Positions 1-9,556 of a stretch of DNA of 28,215 nt are shown piece by piece. The position numbers were made by a program, and so were the translations under genes. The stretch comes from a bacterium. Its GTDB lineage: Bacteria; UBP7; UBA6624. Location: the NCBI GenBank assembly GCA_014384545.1, contig JACNFQ010000045.1, forward strand, positions 1-28,215. Reading direction: 5' to 3'. The notes beneath the pieces are model-generated. The model was not told the origin of the DNA. It worked only from the letters and a program-made list of their open reading frames with translations, and did no database searches. Within the stretch, counting starts at the first letter, position 1, and every line of letters starts with the position of its first letter.

Positions 1-352
1 GGGGGTTACAGCAGTACTGGGGGTTGGGGGGGGGGTTGCTGGGTTGTGGGGGGGTTTTTCGTGTTGGTAGGAAATTGCTGTGATGGGAAACACTAGGGAT
101 ACCCTTTGAGCCATTCAGGCGTATGGGGGGTCCATGTTGGTTGGAGCTGCAAGCATGTTGCCAGGAGGATTAGGTGCCGCCGAGTGGAGCTTATCTACAT
201 TGTTGCAGTCATTGGGGAAGTTGCAAGAACCCCTTTTGGCCAACCAAGCAACCCTCTTGACACGGTTGGTCACACTATGGTTTGGATTTCCATTGGGCGT
301 ATGGGCTGTGTGGTGGGCAACGAAGAAGAGAGGTCTTCATGATTCGGGATAG
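1..352 (+). pseudogene. Broken 3' end of a lysylphosphatidylglycerol synthase/flippase-like (UPF0104) membrane protein
   Basis: The frame open from about 110 to 352 gives a hydrophobic C-terminus with a segment reading SMLPGGLGAAE, then a predicted membrane helix (LVTLWFGFPLGVWAVWW) and a short basic tail. The PGGLG motif followed by a last membrane helix is typical of the C-terminus of the UPF0104 / LPG-synthase transmembrane family, which acts in lipid or glycolipid transfer. Upstream the frame is broken: this frame has TAG at 68-70 and TGA at 107-109, while the neighbouring frame carries a plausible continuation (TLGIPFE, about 90-110). A one-base shift near 107 would join the two. The first 60 bases are runs of G, so the breaks may be sequence errors at an assembly edge rather than true decay. 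The gene also runs off the left end of the window. The family call rests on the last ~75 residues only. Confidence 0.5.
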
Positions 353-549: not shown

Positions 550-789
550 CTATGCTTCTCTCTCGCCTCCTCCCACCCTGATTCGGAATCGAGGAGGGTT
601 TTCAACGACCAAACCCAGATAGAGATGTCCCTCTCCTTGGCACCACGCTTCGATATCCAGAGATGCCATGGGGTCGTCCGACAAGACCTCTGCCACTTCG
701 CCCTCTTCTAATCCCAAGATCGCTTTCGCCAGACGAATCACAGGAAGGGGGCAAAGTAAGCCCAACGCATTTACCTCAACGACGCGCAC
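550..789 (-). CDS. TusA/SirA-family sulfur carrier protein
   Basis: The 79-residue protein matches the small two-layer TusA (SirA, PF01206) fold. It opens with the diagnostic NALGLLCPLPVIRL, in which the CPxP cysteine (Cys13) carries a persulfide in this family, followed by the usual EGEVAEVLSDDPMASLDIEAWC core. TusA proteins accept sulfur from a cysteine desulfurase and pass it on for tRNA thiolation, molybdenum cofactor synthesis or sulfur oxidation. Start: a GTG at 789 overlaps the end of the upstream NifS-like gene by 14 bases, so the two are probably translationally coupled. It is the last gene of the operon. All hallmarks of an active carrier are present; the destination of the sulfur cannot be read from the window. 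Confidence 0.9.
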   Translation of the reverse strand: MRVVEVNALGLLCPLPVIRLAKAILGLEEGEVAEVLSDDPMASLDIEAWCQGEGHLYLGLVVENPPRFRIRVGGGEREA

Positions 790-1864
790 GCACCCAACAC
801 CTCTCTAAGGAATCTAGGGTCCATTCCATCTCCTCTTTCGTCCAATCAAAGGGGGGAGAGAAGTGGAAACCTGCCCTAGGCTGAGGGACACCCATGGACT
901 GTAGGACCTTGCTGGGCAAGCCCGCTCCTGATTGGCAAGCGGATTCTGACCCCATCCAAATACCCTCAAAAGCACACCCTGCCCGGAATGCCTCCATATC
1001 GACGTTTTCTCCCCAACCAGCAACGACCGACTCTAAACGTTCTCCACCCTCAAAGAGATGGACTCCTTCCCATTCCTCTACACCCTTACGAAAGATGCCC
1101 ATGAGCGCCAGAAACGAAGGAGAACATTCCCCGCCAAGAATGCTCTCTGCAGCACCCACCACAAGGGGAACCCCCAGCCGTCCAGGTCGAATACCCCCTT
1201 CGCCTATGCCCCCACCCATTATGGGGAGGGGCTCTGCTCCTCTCCACGCGAGGAACCCGATCCCCACCGGACCCCCAAACCGATAAAAAGAGAGGGAGAC
1301 CCATCGGACGCCCTCTATACCCCTAGGGGGTATGCCATTCCACCCCACCGAAAGATCCACCAACAGGTTTACTCCCCGTTTCTTTCCTTCTTCTACCAAC
1401 TGGTGAATATCTTGAACAGCTCCCGTTTCGCCTGAAGCTGATTCAACGAATACCAAGTCTCCCTCTTTACATTGGCTTAGATTGATCCCTTCCAAGTGGC
1501 CTGTTCTAGATAGGGGGTGTTGCACCAAACTTGCCCCTTTCTGTATCAAGCGGTTCGCTGCCCCTACAAAGGACAATCGGGAGCCCACGGGTAGGACAAC
1601 TTGAGAAGGTTGCAAGGCATGTGTCGCTAAGTGGTGTGCTTCGGTGGCTGAAGAGGTAAAGACGCCACCTCTCCACCCACCACCCAGAGCGGAAAGTATC
1701 TCTACGCGTCCCTTTTCAATGAGCGAAGAGGCCTTCTGCCCCCCTGGATGTTGTCCCTGTCCGTGGGGAAAAGGGATCCCAATATGTCGCTCCATCGCCT
1801 CTTTGACATCGCCCCGAAGAGGGCGTCCGTTCCAACAATCTAGGTTTTGGGGGTTTCCTTTCAA
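776..1864 (-). CDS. NifS/IscS-like aminotransferase class V protein lacking the PLP lysine
   Basis: About 362 residues with the cysteine desulfurase layout: an N-terminal NLDCWNGRPL in place of the usual YLDnnAttP, FTSSATEAHHLA (PLP phosphate region, normally FTSGATEsNNLA), GETGAVQDI, LLVDLSVGWNGIPP (holding the PLP-pyridine aspartate), GGGIGEGGIRPGR (substrate arginine region) and GSESACQSG with the sulfur-accepting cysteine (residue 310). The Schiff-base site, normally SFSGHKxYGPxGIG, reads SLSFYRFGGPVGIG: His becomes Tyr and the PLP lysine becomes Arg (codon CGG at 1282-1280). The His that stacks on PLP also seems replaced (VESASGE). I chose the TTG at 1864 because it overlaps the metK stop as TTGA, the junction style used elsewhere here; a TTG at 1888 is the alternative. 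Followed by a TusA-like gene. Its activity as a desulfurase is doubtful. Confidence 0.85.
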   Translation of the reverse strand: MKGNPQNLDCWNGRPLRGDVKEAMERHIGIPFPHGQGQHPGGQKASSLIEKGRVEILSALGGGWRGGVFTSSATEAHHLATHALQPSQVVLPVGSRLSFVGAANRLIQKGASLVQHPLSRTGHLEGINLSQCKEGDLVFVESASGETGAVQDIHQLVEEGKKRGVNLLVDLSVGWNGIPPRGIEGVRWVSLSFYRFGGPVGIGFLAWRGAEPLPIMGGGIGEGGIRPGRLGVPLVVGAAESILGGECSPSFLALMGIFRKGVEEWEGVHLFEGGERLESVVAGWGENVDMEAFRAGCAFEGIWMGSESACQSGAGLPSKVLQSMGVPQPRAGFHFSPPFDWTKEEMEWTLDSLERCWVRARR

Positions 1865-1873
1865 CAGAAAGGA
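1856..1873 (-). promoter_or_regulatory. Hairpin around the metK stop / NifS-like start
   Basis: A perfect 7-bp inverted repeat (TCCTTTC 1856-1862, GAAAGGA 1867-1873, four-base loop) lies across the TTGA stop/start overlap at 1861-1864. In the minus-strand mRNA it puts the metK TGA and the proposed TTG start in the loop and the descending arm of a small hairpin. The ascending arm is part of a 14-base copy of the 16S rRNA 3' end (1866-1879), so no Shine-Dalgarno sequence is available directly upstream. A role in coupling or damping translation of the NifS-like gene is inference. Confidence 0.3.
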
Positions 1874-3093
1874 GGTGATGGGTCCCAAGGGAGGTCTAAA
1901 TCAGTTCGCCCAAAGTGACCGTAGGCTGAAAGGGGAAGGTATTGACGGTCCCACAACCCCAGTTTATTGATGATTGTCCGCACATCCCACTTGAACCCTC
2001 GCAAGAACGCCTCAACTTCCTTCTGTTGAGATTGAGGCGAAACCTCAACGTAGGGTTCGGATACGAGTTCCGTTTTATGGATGGCATACGCTACTTGGAT
2101 TTCCACCGACTCCACCTGTGGAAGGTTTTCAAGCACATGAACGGCTGCCCACCGTGCAAAATAGGCACCTGAACGATCTACCTTTGTAGGGTCTTTTCCA
2201 CTAAATGCACCACCACCATTCGGCACAAAACCCCCATATGTATCCACAGTAATCTTCCGTCCTGTAAGCCCCGTATCCACCATGGGACCCCCTTCATTCC
2301 AACAACGAGAAGGTTGGATCGTATCGGGGCCTACCCCATCAGCCAAGTGGGAACCCACCACAGGTAAGACCACCTCGTCCCACAACGCCTCTCGCAACCG
2401 TTTCAACCCAGCCGTCGACCCTTCTTGGTCCTTTGAAGTGGCTGCCAAACCATCAATAGCCTCATCATGTTGTGTGCTCATAACGATAGCGTGGACTTGT
2501 GGTCGGGGACGAACCCCACTTTCATACGCCTCAATCGGTGTCTTTCCTTCTGGGTAAACGACCGTAACTTGGGTTTTGCCATCTGGTCGTAACCAAGGGA
2601 GAATCCCCTTTTCTCTCACATAGGCAAGGCGCTGGGCAAGAGCGTGCGACCACGCGATTGCTGAGGGTAAACCCATAGGAGTTTCGCGGGTGGCATACCC
2701 GCACATCATCCCTTGGTCCCCCGCCACCTCGCCCGCTTCCTGCCCTTTGCTCAACTCTCTAGACTGCCCTTTCAGATCCGTGAGATCGACCGAAACAGTG
2801 GTGGGGTCACATTGGAGGGAGTCTTCGTCGTACCCCGCCGCCACCAAGAGATTTCGCGCCAAGGCAGGTGTTCGATTTGCTAATGCTTCTACCAAATCTT
2901 CATCTACCTCACCAGAGACGATGACCCTCTTTCCTGTCAAGAAAGTCTCAACGGCGGTTCGGACACTCCCGTCTGCCCCACTCTCCTTCCGTAAACTCAA
3001 TGCAGAATCTAAGACACTATCAGAAATACCATCAGCCAACTTATCAGGATGGCCCGCAGTCACCGATTCGCTCGTAAAGTAATACTGACTCAT
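1861..3093 (-). CDS. metK: S-adenosylmethionine synthase
   Basis: MetK makes S-adenosylmethionine from ATP and methionine in the cytosol. The 410-residue product has the family signatures: FTSESVTAGHPDKLADGISD near the N-terminus (ATP and metal-binding His/Asp), AGDQGMMCGYATRETP, ILPWLRPDGKTQVTV, TGLTGRKITVDTYGG, the P-loop-like GGGAFSGKDPTKVDRSGAY, and the C-terminal YGHFGR. It is slightly longer than E. coli MetK because of insertions around residues 105-120 and 205-240. The ATG at 3093 overlaps the rpe stop (ATGA, 3093-3090). MetK is commonly found in gmk-rpoZ-coaBC-priA operons, although usually next to coaBC rather than after rpe. Key residues look intact and activity is expected. Confidence 0.97.
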   Translation of the reverse strand: MSQYYFTSESVTAGHPDKLADGISDSVLDSALSLRKESGADGSVRTAVETFLTGKRVIVSGEVDEDLVEALANRTPALARNLLVAAGYDEDSLQCDPTTVSVDLTDLKGQSRELSKGQEAGEVAGDQGMMCGYATRETPMGLPSAIAWSHALAQRLAYVREKGILPWLRPDGKTQVTVVYPEGKTPIEAYESGVRPRPQVHAIVMSTQHDEAIDGLAATSKDQEGSTAGLKRLREALWDEVVLPVVGSHLADGVGPDTIQPSRCWNEGGPMVDTGLTGRKITVDTYGGFVPNGGGAFSGKDPTKVDRSGAYFARWAAVHVLENLPQVESVEIQVAYAIHKTELVSEPYVEVSPQSQQKEVEAFLRGFKWDVRTIINKLGLWDRQYLPLSAYGHFGRTDLDLPWDPSPPFC

Positions 3094-3737
3094 TGACAGA
3101 TCTCTCTAATCCGGCGAACACCTTCGCTTGGGTCTCCACAGCCAAAGATCCCCGACCCCGAAACGAGAACGGTTGCTCCTGCCTCACACAAGGCAGCTCC
3201 ATTCGTAATATCAACTCCACCATCCACTTCAATCTCAAAGTCCAGTCCTTCACTTCTCTTTCTCTGAGCAAGAGATGAAACCCTCTCAATGCTCTCTGGA
3301 ATAAATGCCTGCCCCCCAAAACCAGGAAAGACGGACATAACCACCACCATATCCAAATGAGGGAGGAGGGGAAAGAGTTGGTCCAGTGATGTATCGGGAT
3401 TCAACGCAATACCCGACAAACAACCCAGCGATTTGATTTCTCCAAGAGCTTCCAAGGGTTCAGGCTCGGCTTCGATATGGAAAGAGATCGCTGAAGCACC
3501 TGCTTGAGCAAAAGGGGAAAAGTAGGTCCGGGGGTTTTGAATCATCAAGTGAACATCCTGAAATACATCCATCACTGAAAACCCCTTGACCATCGGTATT
3601 CCCATGCTGAGATTGGGAACGAAGTGTCCATCCATCACATCAATATGGAGCCAATCGGCACCTCCTGAAAGGACAGCACTTGCGCTCCCTCCCAAATCGA
3701 GGTAATCTGCCGCGAGAATCGAGGGTGCAATCTTCAT
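3090..3737 (-). CDS. rpe: Ribulose-phosphate 3-epimerase
   Basis: A 215-residue TIM-barrel enzyme that interconverts ribulose 5-phosphate and xylulose 5-phosphate in the pentose phosphate or Calvin pathway. The sequence shows APSILAADYLDL at the start (catalytic Ser), HIDVMDGHFVPNLSMG (metal-binding His and Asp), DMVVVMSVFPGFGGQAFI (normally MSVnPGFgGQ; here Phe for Asn), EIEVDGGVD (catalytic Asp) and LVSGSGIFG, a phosphate-binding turn. The ATG start overlaps the stop of the upstream pseudokinase gene as ATGA (3737-3734). rpe normally closes the fmt-rsmB-stp-pknB-rsgA-rpe neighbourhood, which supports the reading of the gene before it as a relic of pknB. Confidence 0.96.
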   Translation of the reverse strand: MKIAPSILAADYLDLGGSASAVLSGGADWLHIDVMDGHFVPNLSMGIPMVKGFSVMDVFQDVHLMIQNPRTYFSPFAQAGASAISFHIEAEPEPLEALGEIKSLGCLSGIALNPDTSLDQLFPLLPHLDMVVVMSVFPGFGGQAFIPESIERVSSLAQRKRSEGLDFEIEVDGGVDITNGAALCEAGATVLVSGSGIFGCGDPSEGVRRIREICQ

Positions 3738-5467
3738 TCAAAGCGTGTGGACCACGCCACGCGTCCACCTTGGGTTATTGTAAGAACAACGGGGCGGATT
3801 CCTTCGTTCAATAATCGCCTAAGTGAGAGGAGAAATGCAGGTTCGCTCAAGAGTGATGACCACGGCTCTCTCCAAGAGATCTCCTCATCCCCCCCCGAAA
3901 GGAGCACATTGACTCCCCCCCGTTGAATCCAATCGGGGAATTCACGCCGATCAAAGACCCACCCTTCGGTCGTTTCTGGGGGAGTCTCCACACTTAGGAG
4001 AATATCCCCCACCCATAGAGAAGGAATGAAGTCTCCCTCTTGCGGAGATTGACCCACAACCCGTTCCTTCTCTAACCCTTGACGCGTGCGCCTAAAGATG
4101 CGTACGCCCCCAGCAACCACAATCCCCTCGTTTTCAAGTTTTGTCAGCGCGTCAATTACCGTCTTCTGGTGAAGTGATGGGAAAGTATGGAGTTCCTCTG
4201 CCAGAGGGAAACTTACTTCCAGAACAACCCCCTCGCCATGCCCCAATATACCTCCTGGTTCTGGCACCATCCCTACGACGCGTCCAGGGACTTCAAGAGC
4301 ACTTTGACTGACACGAATGCTCCCCACCCACAACCCCCGAGCAAGGAGCTCTCTTGTAGCTTCGGACACCATCTCACCCACCAAGTCTGGTAGACGATTC
4401 TCTTTAGGACCCGGACTCGTCCAAATCTTGATGGTAGCACCCTCTCTCAAGGAACGACCAGCGATCGGCTCGGTTCGTGAAACGACCCCCATTGGGAATC
4501 CTCCCGCTTCATCTTCACCTACCCTTTCTACCTGATAGCCCATCGCCCGCAACCGAGGAAGAGCCATGTGGAGAGGTTCTCCCCGCAGATCGGGAAGTCG
4601 ACCACTTCCCGGGAAGAAGGCTAAGAGACGCAAGACCTCAATCGCTGCCCAACCCCCTGCCAAAGCCAACAGAAGCCTAGATAGGGGGTCTAGCCAACGG
4701 CGCACAATTCGGGTTAGTTCGCCCCCTAGTCCTCGATCTTCTCTCTCGTCTTCAATCACGGCCTCCACCCGCCCTGACAGGCGAGAGAGCCCACTTTTGA
4801 CCTTCTCCTTTTTCCCCGAAAGAAGGTCTCGTAGAGGTTCCACAAGCAAGGGGGGGATTGACTTGGGGAAGTTCTGGGGTGTATTGCCCGCTACAGGATA
4901 ACCTCCCGTCAAGAGACGCATAACCAACAACCCCAATGCGCGACCATCTCTTTCTTCAGCGGACCGATCCCCCTGAATTCCCCCCAATCCCAACGGGGGT
5001 GCCTGGGGAAGATCCTCCATCGCTCTTCCGACAATCGTCGTCGCTGGGAAATCAGCCAACCAAGCCTTCCCTTTGCTATCCACAATAAAACTCTCACCCT
5101 TTAGCCAACCGTGGCTTATTCCAGCTGTTTGTAGTGCAGAAACAGATAAGGAAAGAGAGCGAATCACTTCCAATCTATCGGAGCGACGAGGATTGCTTTT
5201 TAGCCAATCGGGAAGCCACCTTTCGGTATCAGGACAATCGACAATAACTCTCATTTCGCCTCGAAACCCCTTGATTGCACGCAAAGATAAGATTCCGGGA
5301 AAAGACCGTCCTAAAAGACTCTCCACTCTTGAAGCCTCAAGACGCCAATTGAGATCGGGATGTTGGGCAGACCACACCAAACAGGGTCTTTCTCCCCACA
5401 TCGCACGATGGATCCGGAAAATCCCGCGTCTTCCAATCGGTCTCAATAGGCGGAGGGTTTGTGGCAC
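3734..5467 (-). CDS. PASTA-domain membrane pseudokinase (PknB/PrkC-like)
   Basis: About 577 residues: a kinase-like lobe (1-230), a linker, one membrane helix (263-285, SRLLLALAGGWAAIEVLRLL) and three external PASTA repeats (about 291-351, 359-420, 428-494), then a C-terminal tail. The opening LRLLRPIGRRGIFRIHRA matches the glycine-rich loop of Hanks-type kinases, but the catalytic residues are gone: the VAVK lysine region reads CLVWSA, the HRDLKxxN loop is HGWLKGESF (Asp to Trp, residues 119-121, and Asn lost), and DFG is DFP (139-141). The PASTA kinase family senses cell-wall muropeptides or lipid II. Locus position (after fmt, before rpe) matches pknB. A GTG start at 5467, one base after the fmt stop with GAGGT ten bases upstream, looks best; an ATG at 5500 is the alternative. 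The frame stays open upstream to 5623. Likely a non-catalytic receptor. Confidence 0.85.
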   Translation of the reverse strand: MPQTLRLLRPIGRRGIFRIHRAMWGERPCLVWSAQHPDLNWRLEASRVESLLGRSFPGILSLRAIKGFRGEMRVIVDCPDTERWLPDWLKSNPRRSDRLEVIRSLSLSVSALQTAGISHGWLKGESFIVDSKGKAWLADFPATTIVGRAMEDLPQAPPLGLGGIQGDRSAEERDGRALGLLVMRLLTGGYPVAGNTPQNFPKSIPPLLVEPLRDLLSGKKEKVKSGLSRLSGRVEAVIEDEREDRGLGGELTRIVRRWLDPLSRLLLALAGGWAAIEVLRLLAFFPGSGRLPDLRGEPLHMALPRLRAMGYQVERVGEDEAGGFPMGVVSRTEPIAGRSLREGATIKIWTSPGPKENRLPDLVGEMVSEATRELLARGLWVGSIRVSQSALEVPGRVVGMVPEPGGILGHGEGVVLEVSFPLAEELHTFPSLHQKTVIDALTKLENEGIVVAGGVRIFRRTRQGLEKERVVGQSPQEGDFIPSLWVGDILLSVETPPETTEGWVFDRREFPDWIQRGGVNVLLSGGDEEISWREPWSSLLSEPAFLLSLRRLLNEGIRPVVLTITQGGRVAWSTRFE

Positions 5468-5468
5468 T

Positions 5469-6335
5469 TTAGCCCTGACCTCGCAAGAACTCTGCCCCAT
5501 CCATTTCTCGTTTCCCCGCGGGATGGACTCTCCCAATGGAGAGAACCCCGTCACCAGTCCCCAAGAGAAGGCTAGTCCCTCTTGATGCCAATTCACCCAC
5601 CCCCAAAGTGCCCTCAACAACACCCTTAGATCCTCTCAATCCCAACCAAGAACCCTTCCAACGCATCCTCGCTCCTGGAGAGGGGTCTAGGGCCCGAATG
5701 CGATGGTGCATTTTTGGGGCAGACATCGTGGGAACAACCTCCCGATCTTCGGCTGTAATGCGGGAAGCCCAAGTCGGTTCTCCCTCCTGTTCCATACGGA
5801 CAGCCGTTCCTTCCCCCAAAGCATCCCAGATGTCCCGCAGTTGCCTTACCCCCTCTTTTCCCATCTCTTCCTTCACCCATCCTCCCGTACTAAGGGGGGG
5901 GGCTTTTACCCAGCCGCGGATCAGTACCGGACCAGCATCCCACTCCTCAACGAGTTCTATCCAACACGCACCCAACCGTTCCTCTCCAGCCATGAGGGCA
6001 CGCTGAATGGGGGCAGCTCCTCGCCATCGGGGCAAATCGGATGGGTGAAAGTTCAATGTCCCCAACGGTCGGTTCAGCCAAGAAGGTGGAAGGTAGTTGC
6101 CATAGGAAACGACCAAGAGAAGGTCGCAAGGAGGACACTGATGGGTAGCGGGGCTAAAGGTATGAATGGGGATTTCCTTCTCGGTCGCCCATCTTGAGAC
6201 TTCGGTTTCTCGTCTCCCGAGCCCTCTACCCGCTTTGGCAGGGGGTCGGGTCAAGACCCAATCGGGTCTCTGGGGAAGGAGGGACAGAATATGGCAAGCC
6301 AATCCATCTGATCCAGCAAAACCTACTCGAAACAA
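5469..6335 (-). CDS. fmt: Methionyl-tRNA formyltransferase
   Basis: Formylates initiator Met-tRNA using 10-formyl-tetrahydrofolate. The 288-residue product is a little short (usually about 310) but has the core: RVGFAGSDGLACHIL at the N-terminus, a loop GRGLGRRETEVSRWA, DLLLVVSYGNYLP, the catalytic block LNFHPSDLPRWRGAAPIQ (Asn and His), EEWDAGPVLI (catalytic Asp), and a C-terminal beta-barrel region. Substitutions are seen in the usual K-x-G-R-G region and in the tRNA-binding C-terminal domain, which is reduced. The start is a TTG at 6335, within the end of def (13-base overlap). The def-fmt pair is a standard arrangement, since formylation and deformylation act on the same nascent chain. 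Confidence 0.95.
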   Translation of the reverse strand: MFRVGFAGSDGLACHILSLLPQRPDWVLTRPPAKAGRGLGRRETEVSRWATEKEIPIHTFSPATHQCPPCDLLLVVSYGNYLPPSWLNRPLGTLNFHPSDLPRWRGAAPIQRALMAGEERLGACWIELVEEWDAGPVLIRGWVKAPPLSTGGWVKEEMGKEGVRQLRDIWDALGEGTAVRMEQEGEPTWASRITAEDREVVPTMSAPKMHHRIRALDPSPGARMRWKGSWLGLRGSKGVVEGTLGVGELASRGTSLLLGTGDGVLSIGRVHPAGKREMDGAEFLRGQG

Positions 6336-6826
6336 CGCTTTGCCTCCTCCACACCAACGGGGCGTTCTTTATACTCTAAACTCCCTTCCAGTGCTCGGTC
6401 AAAAAGCAGAACACCATCTAGGTGGTCCAGTTCATGTTGAATGACACGAGCAAACAGACCACTCGCTTCCATCCTGAATCTCTCTCCATCCAAGTGGGTC
6501 GCTTCAACGACGACATAGGGAGACCGTGGCACTCTCGCAATGAGTTCCGGCATTGAGAGACATCCTTCCCAATCCACGACACGCTCTGAGGAATGCTCCA
6601 GAATAATGGGGTTGATTAGGGGGTGAACTCTCTCTTCCTCATCCCGGCAAAGAGCGAACCGGAGAGAGACCCCTACTTGAGGTGCAGCCAAACCCAAACC
6701 TTCCTTTTCTTCTAGGATTCTCTCCATCCCTGCCACCATCTCAGGACTTACGCCTTCCTTTACGGGGCGACAAGGCTCCATGAGAACTGGAGCCGGAAAA
6801 TAGACGAGCTTAATTCGGCTGTTCAT
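6323..6826 (-). CDS. def: Peptide deformylase
   Basis: A 167-residue metalloenzyme that removes the N-formyl group from nascent proteins. All three signature motifs are intact: GLGLAAPQVG (motif I), EGCLSMPE (motif II, the Cys metal ligand) and VIQHELDHLDG (motif III, HExxH with the two His ligands and catalytic Glu). The ATG at 6826 overlaps the priA stop as ATGA (6826-6823) and the 3' end overlaps fmt. Expected to be active and essential together with fmt. Confidence 0.97.
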   Translation of the reverse strand: MNSRIKLVYFPAPVLMEPCRPVKEGVSPEMVAGMERILEEKEGLGLAAPQVGVSLRFALCRDEEERVHPLINPIILEHSSERVVDWEGCLSMPELIARVPRSPYVVVEATHLDGERFRMEASGLFARVIQHELDHLDGVLLFDRALEGSLEYKERPVGVEEAKRCFE

Positions 6827-8436
6827 TCACTACAGATTCCTTTGGGGATATAGAAGAGACGCACTTCCCCCCTCACACGGTCTACCCAAGCTTTGGCACT
6901 CTCTATCGTACTTTGGGGCAAGAGGGGATGCCCCCGCAGAACGACAGCTCCAAAACGGCGCTTTGGACCAGTAATCCACCCCTTCTTCTTGTCCCACCAA
7001 TCAGGGTGGTTCTCCAGGATCACTTCAGGAACTTCTCCCGCCCGCTCTGAGACGAAGAGCACGAGCATCTCACCAAAGGGTGGCAGAGACATCAGTTTTC
7101 GTATCTCTTTTTCCTCTCTCCAATGGATGCCTGCATCCCCTTCCAATACGGATTGGATGGCGGTGGGAATCCGTTTTCCTACGCCCAAATAGAGTGCCGT
7201 ATCTTCTGCTGTGCAGGATTGGCGCAACGCCATCAACCGCCACCACCCTTGCTCCAGAGCAAACGCATCCCTTCCACTCAAATGAGACCGAGCATTGGGA
7301 ACCCACCTAATCACATCAGCCCCTAATGAGAGAATGGTCTCAAAATCGGTCGTAATCAAGAACGGTTTCTCCCCCTCTAGAAATGCCCTCTTTCTCGCTC
7401 GCTTCTTGGCAAGCGTATCCTGTCCAATCACTGTGACACTCTTGGCGGGTAGCACCCTGTCAGCCCACGCCTTGACTGTATCTATCCCCCCTTTAGATTT
7501 CTGGAGTCGTGTTCCATCTAGAGGACATCGAGAAAGGGGGGGCCAATCTCGTCGACAAAGGAGACAACCCACCCGCCATCCTGCTCTCTCTAGAAGGGCT
7601 GAACCACACCTTTGACAACGGACAACATCTTCACACCTCGTGCACCACAGCGGTCCTACGCCCCTTGAAGCGGTCCACAAGGCGACCTTCTTGCCCTGGC
7701 GAATCAGCCTGCGCAACCACTTACTTCTCCCCGTTAGACCCACGGGTAATTCAACAGCCTCTCCTCTTACCCAAGGAGAAGAGCCCGTTCCCTCCCCCTC
7801 GTTCTCCAAGAAGTCGGCTAGGGGGAGTGGCTGCCCCATTTTCTCTAGGGGAACCCCATACGCCCTTGCTGCCATTGCGCCTAATCGTCTCCCATCTCGA
7901 AATGGGGCACGGAAAAGGCGACAGTGCCCCCCATGCCCCGGCTCAAGAATAACGACTTTCTTGAGGGAGGTAAAGGGGAGCCCTAAGATGGCGTCCGTTC
8001 CTACAAAAACCCCCCCTTTTCCTTCTGCAGCAGCCCTCCAACTCTGCTTGCCTGCCAAGAATGCCCCTTTGGGAGCCCATCTCTTGACACCGCCCACAGA
8101 TGGCGCTACCCAAACTTCTTGGTTCCCCTCCCCCTTTTCTCCCTCCATAGGACCCTCTTTTGGGAGCAATAATGAGGAGAAATCCCCGGGTTCAATGAGT
8201 GCCTCGCCAGAGAGAGAGAGGAAGCGCCGTCTGGCAGGGGAGAGACGAGGTCCGACTTCAAGAATCTCTTTCAGTTTTTGCCCGTCGTCCTGGGCACCTT
8301 CCCGACTCACAATCCCCCAAACGGTGCGGTTTCCAAAAGGGACCTTGACCCAAGTGCCAAAAGGGAGAGGTTGGGGTGATAAGTAAGACCAAGGCGTAAA
8401 CCCAGGCACATGGACGGGGTAAACCCCGAGAACCAC
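6823..8436 (-). CDS. priA: PriA-like primosomal protein N', helicase motifs lost
   Basis: About 537 residues, much shorter than typical PriA (about 730). The N-terminal DNA-binding domain (VVLGVYPVHVPGFTPWSYL, then GTWVKVPFGNRTVWGIV) is clear. The zinc domain is also clear (WCTRCEDVVRCQRC, GCLLCRRDW, RCPLDG), with seven of the eight cysteines: the last CxxC has Asp for Cys. So is the C-terminal part (RKLMSLPPFGEM; YIPKG near the end). The GxTGSGKTE Walker A segment is absent, and the DEEHD motif aligns with LEPGHGGHC. The GTRSAlF segment survives as GTDAILGLPF. So this is a helicase-dead PriA, as known in actinobacteria, probably acting as a structural helicase loader. Start: a GTG at 8436, 13 bases past the upstream stop, fits the family N-terminus; a TTG at 8487 is possible. 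Neighbours coaBC, def and fmt are typical. Confidence 0.88.
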   Translation of the reverse strand: MVLGVYPVHVPGFTPWSYLSPQPLPFGTWVKVPFGNRTVWGIVSREGAQDDGQKLKEILEVGPRLSPARRRFLSLSGEALIEPGDFSSLLLPKEGPMEGEKGEGNQEVWVAPSVGGVKRWAPKGAFLAGKQSWRAAAEGKGGVFVGTDAILGLPFTSLKKVVILEPGHGGHCRLFRAPFRDGRRLGAMAARAYGVPLEKMGQPLPLADFLENEGEGTGSSPWVRGEAVELPVGLTGRSKWLRRLIRQGKKVALWTASRGVGPLWCTRCEDVVRCQRCGSALLERAGWRVGCLLCRRDWPPLSRCPLDGTRLQKSKGGIDTVKAWADRVLPAKSVTVIGQDTLAKKRARKRAFLEGEKPFLITTDFETILSLGADVIRWVPNARSHLSGRDAFALEQGWWRLMALRQSCTAEDTALYLGVGKRIPTAIQSVLEGDAGIHWREEKEIRKLMSLPPFGEMLVLFVSERAGEVPEVILENHPDWWDKKKGWITGPKRRFGAVVLRGHPLLPQSTIESAKAWVDRVRGEVRLFYIPKGICSE

Positions 8437-8449
8437 TTTGGAGTGTGCG

Positions 8450-9556
8450 CTAACTTCCCTCCTCCGTGCTCGGTTCAGACGGGACAACAGGCGGGGATTC
8501 CAACTCCTCTAAGGGTGTCTCATCAGACGGGACAACAGGGGGGGATTCCAACTCCTCTAAGGGTGTCTCATCGGTGCTCTCGCTTGAGGGGAACTCCTCT
8601 GTCATTCCCAGAAGGTCCAAACGGAGTGTCCCAAACAAGTCAAAGTCAAAAACCAATCCCTGTTCGTTGAGCCTCTCGACAATCCATCTTTGATAGTGGG
8701 GCATAAACCTCATCTCTGTCACAATGCTCCTAACCGTCTCTATCACTTCTTCAAAAGAATGCTCCACTTCTTCCTTGCGCCCCACCATAGTTACAAAGAG
8801 GTGTGCCTCAATATCAATCCCTACAGGATACTGAAAAGGACCACTCCAGGACCCTTCTTCCATCAAAGACAAAGTGTCGGCGACTTCGGGGGGGAAAGTA
8901 CTCTTGATTTGTCCTATCGTTAGGGGGTCAGAAACGAGTCCGCCTTCTCGGGCAGTCAGTTCGTCCATACTATGCTCTCTAGCGACCACACTAAAGTCGT
9001 CCCCACCCTCTAATCTCTCCAAGACTCGAGCAGACTCTTCTTCGTTGTCCAAGAGAATAATCCCAATCCTCATACGGAGAGGCTCCAAGAATGCCTGTCG
9101 ATTCTCTAAATAGAAATCCAATAGATCGTCATCTGTAGGCAATAGCCCAACCAAACCGAGAATCTCTTGGGGGAGAATCTCTCCTTTCATCAACTCTGTC
9201 GTTTGGACCATTTGATGGAACTTGATTACCGCCTGATGCCCAAAGAGCTGTTCAAATTGGAGGAAAGCGATGCGCATGGCGGGCTCTGCTTCCAGCTGAA
9301 TGAACCGTTCTACATCAGCTAAAGTCACCTCTACACCCCGTGCCTTTGCTTCTAATAAGAGAAGGTGCCCTTCAACGACTGCAGCGACTGCAGACTGTGC
9401 CCCCCCAGGGGGATCTTCGCCCCACTGAAACATCGCAATCACCACCTCGTCTAGGGTTATGGGGTCGTCCCCCACATGTCCAATGACAACCCCTTCGCCG
9501 GCAGCTCCTCCTAATGCACCTAGTGCGAAGAGCGAAAGAAGGAACAGACGTTTCAA
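8450..9556 (-). CDS. SurA/PrsA-like parvulin-type exported foldase
   Basis: The 368-residue protein starts with a signal peptide (MKRLFLLSLFALGALGGAAG). It continues with a helical chaperone segment like the SurA N-terminal domain (VIGHVGDDPITLDEV, then long helices with VEGHLLLLEAKARGVEVT), a parvulin-like rotamase domain (about 160-285; LEGGDDFSVVAREHSMDE, EGGLVSDPL, FPPEVADTLSLMEEG), and a Ser/Pro/Glu-rich C-terminal tail holding a 16-residue duplication. In parvulins the first strand normally reads RHILV; here it is RIGIILLD without the His, so isomerase activity is uncertain and a chaperone role may dominate. It would help exported proteins fold in the periplasm or outside the membrane. 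The TTG start at 9556 overlaps the coaBC stop as TTGA (9556-9553). Its place inside the coaBC-priA block is unusual. Confidence 0.8.
   Translation of the reverse strand: MKRLFLLSLFALGALGGAAGEGVVIGHVGDDPITLDEVVIAMFQWGEDPPGGAQSAVAAVVEGHLLLLEAKARGVEVTLADVERFIQLEAEPAMRIAFLQFEQLFGHQAVIKFHQMVQTTELMKGEILPQEILGLVGLLPTDDDLLDFYLENRQAFLEPLRMRIGIILLDNEEESARVLERLEGGDDFSVVAREHSMDELTAREGGLVSDPLTIGQIKSTFPPEVADTLSLMEEGSWSGPFQYPVGIDIEAHLFVTMVGRKEEVEHSFEEVIETVRSIVTEMRFMPHYQRWIVERLNEQGLVFDFDLFGTLRLDLLGMTEEFPSSESTDETPLEELESPPVVPSDETPLEELESPPVVPSEPSTEEGS
8476..8571 (-). repeat. Two tandem 48-bp units in the tail of the parvulin-like gene
   Basis: Units 8476-8523 and 8524-8571 are directly adjacent and differ at one base (c at 8492, g at 8540). 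Each encodes the 16 residues DETPLEELESPPVVPS in the C-terminal tail. Two copies in frame and almost identical point to a recent duplication; a variable-number tandem repeat is possible. Confidence 0.95.

Follow-up and report, generated by a model that had tools for sequence, protein, structure and literature searches.

The 28,215-nucleotide stretch of DNA analysed here, referred to below as the window, carries on its minus strand a TTG-initiated gene (776–1888) for a 370-aa lysine-less protein of the NifS/IscS fold, assigned by ORF calling and Pfam. The Pfam domain of the protein is Aminotran_5 (PF00266; 35.6 bits, cut-off 21.5), and the nearest NCBIfam models are DndA, NifS and IscS, matched at 20–62 bits, below their cut-offs of 304–643. 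Directly upstream, overlapping it by 28 nt, is metK (1861–3093, minus strand; TIGR01034, 297 bits), with rpe (3090–3737, minus strand; TIGR01163, 241 bits over cut-off) upstream of metK. A tusA-like gene (550–789, minus strand; 79 aa) overlaps the other end by 14 nt, giving one operon in the order rpe-metK-X-tusA, where X is the lysine-less NifS gene. The CPxP motif of the TusA-like protein, described in a first-pass annotation of this DNA together with the overlap, is present as CPLP; the protein scores 62.3 bits with the Pfam TusA model (PF01206, cut-off 28.6) and 38 with the NCBIfam TusA equivalog, under the cut-off of 78. Further along the window are a gene (3734–5623, minus strand) for a 629-aa protein with PASTA domains, in which Pfam detects no kinase domain and of which the N-terminal part resembles a degenerate kinase (HGWLKGESFIV, ADFP), so that it is possibly a pseudokinase, and one (6823–8487, minus strand) for a PriA-like protein whose sole detected domain is 3'BD (27 bits); the helicase domain was not found in the latter, and cysteine-rich zinc-type motifs remain.

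The window protein was aligned with E. coli IscS and other NifS proteins; residue columns follow IscS numbering, and the roles given to them are those of established desulfurase structures. Three substitutions reported in the first-pass annotation are borne out by this alignment. Arg203 (codon CGG, 1280–1282, minus strand) occupies the Lys206 column, which is all lysine in the reference set, Tyr202 (codon 1283–1285, minus strand) occupies the preceding His205 column, and Arg104 (codon 1577–1579, minus strand) takes the place of the PLP-stacking His104. Lys206 is the PLP lysine of IscS (PMC8300815). The residue losses are more extensive than first noted, as N155 is replaced by G, Q183 by V, T243' by R and the substrate arginine R354 by H. 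T76, D180 and S203 are retained, D180 being the only one kept among H104, N155, D180, Q183, H205, T243' and Arg354. The persulfide-loop cysteine is likewise kept, as had been stated, and is Cys318 (codon TGC, 935–937, minus strand) in the Cys328 column, on a loop of the same (class I) length as that of IscS.

A replacement lysine that had moved into the pocket was sought by aligning the 11 lysines of the window protein, and none was found. K29 alone is also lysine in the ortholog described below when the alignment is anchored on IscS, K10 and K141 also match lysines of that ortholog in a pairwise alignment, and none of the three aligns with a PLP-contact position.

An ortholog in another genus

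The genome that contains the window (G000; 1.39 Mb, 79% complete, 107 contigs) was compared with two others of its phylum, G001 and G002. A single ortholog was found, in G002, which represents another genus; it is 31% identical to the window protein and also starts with TTG. All eight residues of SFYRFGGP are identical in the two proteins, including the arginine at the lysine position, and both also have GSRLS with Arg104, TSSATEAHHL and the loop cysteine. Their common departures from IscS are R104, Y202, R203, H86 and S103, and the residues at the Thr243 and Gln183 positions are unlike between the two. Within 3 residues of pocket positions 34/62 residues of the pair are identical, as against 70/291 elsewhere (p=5e-6).

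The order rpe-metK-X-tusA, with overlapping genes, is the same in G002 as in the window, and neither operon has an IscU gene. Convergent to tusA in the window is an ORF (134–352, plus strand) that by eye looks like the last part of a gene for a membrane protein, and at the matching position in G002 the membrane protein gene is complete (L007, 2927–4018, minus strand); judged by eye, the synteny therefore seems to continue past tusA. In the G001 bin (62% complete) this gene, TusA and metK are all absent, and because metK is missing too from so incomplete a bin, this absence is uninformative. Orthologs were sought in plasmids and none was found.

Since the G002 ortholog carries the same substitutions although it is 31% identical overall, a base error in the CGG codon, which the first-pass annotation had allowed for, is contradicted, and chance is excluded with it. 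Nor is the gene a pseudogene, as decay would not leave the surroundings of a dead active site as the best-conserved part. The aligned sequences support well the loss of normal PLP chemistry that had been expected from the missing lysine: in both genera the substrate arginine and most of the remaining PLP contacts have disappeared along with it.

Predicted fold and relation to known proteins

An AlphaFold2 model of the window protein, computed from an input of this protein and 31 NifS relatives with the G002 ortholog left out, has a pLDDT of 89.6 and a pTM of 0.89. The best 50 PDB matches listed are cysteine desulfurases, NifS-like proteins or selenocysteine lyases, with Z of 34–40. Against IscS/NifS structures Z is 37–40, including 38.9 for the E. 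coli IscS-TusA structure 3lvj, and against the lysine-less IscS of Archaeoglobus fulgidus it is 38–39 (39.1 for 4hvk). In the predicted model the NifS/IscS fold is intact, in agreement with the earlier statement that the rest of the scaffold is kept, the match to cysteine desulfurases reaching Z of 40.

The window protein stops near IscS residue 384 and lacks the IscU-binding C-terminal tail. In IscS this C-terminal segment contributes to the IscU interface, and IscS from which it has been deleted no longer binds IscU (PMC2854127); the absence of the tail is consistent with a role that involves TusA and not IscU. A tail containing SP is found in 17/17 of the other lysine-less proteins described below and in neither of the two orthologs. 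As a sign of IscU partnership, however, tail length is not decisive for single proteins, the median among NifS proteins being 12 with an IscU neighbour versus 7 without.

Lysine-less IscS proteins are already known. The IscS of A. fulgidus (4eb5, 4eb7, 4hvk) carries Asp in place of the lysine, lacks desulfurase activity and is believed to contribute a cysteine ligand for the IscU-bound cluster and not to act as a sulfur source; IscS1 of Methanosarcina acetivorans is also without the lysine (PMC7585200). Like the window protein, A. fulgidus IscS combines the IscS fold and the loop cysteine with the loss of the PLP lysine. Its partner, however, is IscU and its C-terminal end is of the usual kind, whereas the window protein has TusA as its neighbour, no tail, Arg in place of Asp at the lysine site and far more of the pocket lost. 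In E. coli, IscS passes persulfide from Cys328 to Cys19 of TusA (PMC2854127). The window protein resembles E. coli IscS (3lvj) in fold, loop cysteine and loop length, and in its predicted TusA partner, but unlike it has no PLP lysine, no substrate arginine and little of the PLP pocket. The E. coli tusA gene lies outside the isc operon, whereas that of the window overlaps the lysine-less NifS gene. The open-access literature searched yielded no report of a lysine-less NifS with TusA as its partner, and within that literature both this pairing and the degree of pocket change look new.

A wider class of lysine-less NifS proteins

A profile built from the two orthologs was used to search 386 genomes from across the bacterial domain. 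The orthologs score 690 and 727 bits, as sequences that themselves built the profile, and the next-best match scores 114. Two candidate orthologs, at L008 and L011, were rejected as ordinary NifS with the lysine. From 120 loci around NifS matches we scored 123 other NifS homologs. The lysine is missing in 17 of the 123, a survey set picked by likeness to two lysine-less proteins, and is replaced by Q, R, G, S, T or M. The window protein had been treated as a single oddity, and it is not one: the 17 come from 13 other bacterial families (L102, L103, L105, L106, L107, L124, L127, L143, L150, L171, L178, L183, L185, L188, L189, L205 and L211).

The substrate arginine R354 is lost in 17/17 of the lysine-less proteins versus 1/106 of those with the lysine, whereas the loop cysteine is retained in 17/17 and the loop length in nearly all. 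A TusA neighbour, defined as one within 3 kb on the same strand, accompanies 11/17 lysine-less genes versus 2/106 lysine-bearing ones, a result that is unchanged with E. coli TusA as the sole query. DsrE-like neighbours follow the same division (7/17 versus 0/106), as do IscU neighbours (13/17 versus 32/106), and many of the 17 are clustered with IscU, a DsrE-like protein and TusA. Counted per gene, the TusA linkage has a Fisher p of 6e-10, which is overstated as the 17 group as one clade; counted by family it is 7/13 versus 2/77 (p=7e-6), and the DsrE linkage is 5/13 versus 0/77. The clade has modest support, and because the 17 form one clade few independent events lie behind these statistics; an independent-pairs test of the TusA linkage had 2 pairs only and no power.

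The window protein has the traits of this clade, with Lys206 and Arg354 lost, Cys328 kept and TusA adjacent. In quick trees, however, the window pair falls apart from the 17-member clade, on a long branch, and a topology with one group is not rejected (p-AU 0.69). Members of the clade (L103, L106, L143, L188 and others) keep His104, mostly Thr243', and the SP tail, none of which the window protein does, and they often have IscU and DsrE-like neighbours, whereas beside the window protein there is TusA but not IscU. We conclude that the window protein either belongs to or parallels a wider lysine-less class, among which A. fulgidus IscS has been studied. One of the two lysine-bearing NifS genes with a TusA neighbour (L207, 3542–4711) has lost R354; it branches near the lysine-less clade and is a possible intermediate.

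Proposed function and alternatives

Standard sulfur trafficking begins with a PLP desulfurase that splits cysteine. The recurrent loss of the lysine beside TusA suggests instead a protein that hands sulfur on, with no cysteine-splitting activity of its own. From the fold, the residue losses, the kept cysteine, the conserved tusA operon and the recurrence in other bacteria, we tentatively propose, with a confidence somewhat short of even, that the window protein is a catalytically dead class I desulfurase fold, serving as a dock for TusA and as a persulfide relay through Cys318. Without its PLP lysine, its substrate arginine and the greater part of the PLP pocket, it would be unable to split cysteine. 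TusA would dock on the window protein as it does on IscS, and Cys318 on the mobile loop may take persulfide from SufS/SufU, from a rhodanese domain, or from sulfide or polysulfide. Persulfide would then be exchanged between Cys318 and the CPxP cysteine of TusA, through which sulfur could reach thiolation, such as MnmA-dependent 2-thiouridine, or the molybdenum cofactor.

TusA docking is the weakest step of this relay because several of the TusA-contact residues of IscS, taken from the IscS-TusA interface (PMC2854127), are not kept. Trp45 is Gln, a residue often seen there in normal NifS too, Glu49 has become Ser, and Arg220 and Arg237 are lost, while an acid at Asp52 and Arg55 remain.

The other sulfur genes of these genomes offer possible partners. 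A normal SufS with its lysine (SGHK) is encoded in both G000 and G002, so that a second, ordinary desulfurase does exist in the genome, as the first-pass annotation had asked; in G000 a SufU-like gene adjoins sufS, and the SufS gene is unlinked to the lysine-less one. One TusA per genome was detected in G000 and G002, namely the neighbour of the lysine-less NifS. MnmA is found in all three phylum genomes with the expected PC..C and second cysteine, and G000 has a MoeB/ThiF-rhodanese fusion beside a MoeA-like ORF (both named by eye). DsrE_2 was looked for in the phylum's genomes, which are incomplete, and not found. With SufS, MnmA and MoeB-rhodanese genes present, a true desulfurase and likely customers for TusA are at hand in the cell, and these proteins are a possible sulfur source and customers of the relay. 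As a separate observation, a thioredoxin gene precedes mnmA in 3/3 of the phylum genomes (L045, 1081–2431; L044, 1175–2511; L043, 1175–2511).

A cysteine-only sulfur relay and a scaffold for TusA had both been considered conceivable at the outset. Either would fit the TusA pairing, the kept cysteine and the same combination elsewhere, and at this point the function is read from sequence. In the second case the window protein would be a structural or regulatory partner that holds or protects TusA, or tunes SufS/SufU, with no sulfur on Cys318. The TusA pairing and the lost catalysis fit this equally well, and A. fulgidus IscS is itself thought to be a ligand or scaffold (PMC7585200). We nevertheless consider it unlikely, as a scaffold would not need the loop cysteine that is present in both orthologs and 17/17 of the others, nor does it account for a loop length kept in nearly all lysine-less proteins.

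A pure relay leaves the two conserved pocket arginines unexplained, and so leaves room for a bound anion. The pocket may have been rebuilt around Arg104, Tyr202 and Arg203 for another anionic ligand, making the protein a new enzyme or ligand binder. That conservation peaks at the altered pocket (34/62 versus 70/291 identical), with R104, Y202, R203, H86 and S103 common to the two orthologs, speaks for such a role. It is, however, slightly less likely than the scaffold, as no ligand is known, two sequences only are involved, and the Thr243 and Gln183 positions are not alike in them.

Some other PLP enzymes of fold type I are known to have partner subunits without the lysine, for example LCB1 of serine palmitoyltransferase. 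By analogy with these, the window protein could be a non-catalytic subunit that pairs with the normal SufS present in both genomes. This we regard as improbable, because SufS is of class II and distant in sequence and the genes are unlinked. The use of PLP or PMP for some activity without a Schiff base seems about as improbable; T76, D180 and S203 are retained, but H104, N155, Q183, H205, K206, T243' and R354 are all changed. A pseudogene or an assembly error might be suspected in so fragmented an assembly (107 contigs, 79% complete), but its probability is negligible, given a full-length ORF and substitutions that are repeated in the other-genus ortholog at 31% identity.

The relay that we prefer for the window protein may extend to the wider class, in which case lysine-less NifS with TusA, often with a DsrE-like protein and IscU, would be a general bacterial module for cysteine-independent sulfur delivery, of which the window protein, with its two-arginine pocket, would be the most reduced, TusA-only form. 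We hold this generalisation to be possible but doubtful. In such a module, sulfide or polysulfide sulfur would enter through DsrE/TusA, ride on the loop cysteine and reach IscU or thiolation enzymes. A conserved desulfurase fold that has lost cysteine splitting but stays with a sulfur carrier would show that docking persulfide is reason enough to keep the fold, and would indicate a sulfur supply in which cysteine is bypassed at this point. An Aminotran_5 annotation beside TusA or IscU may label dead enzymes as desulfurases. Whether lysine-less NifS proteins take and hand on persulfide becomes a directly testable question. Among the genomes with a member of the lysine-less clade, at least four also carry a normal NifS.
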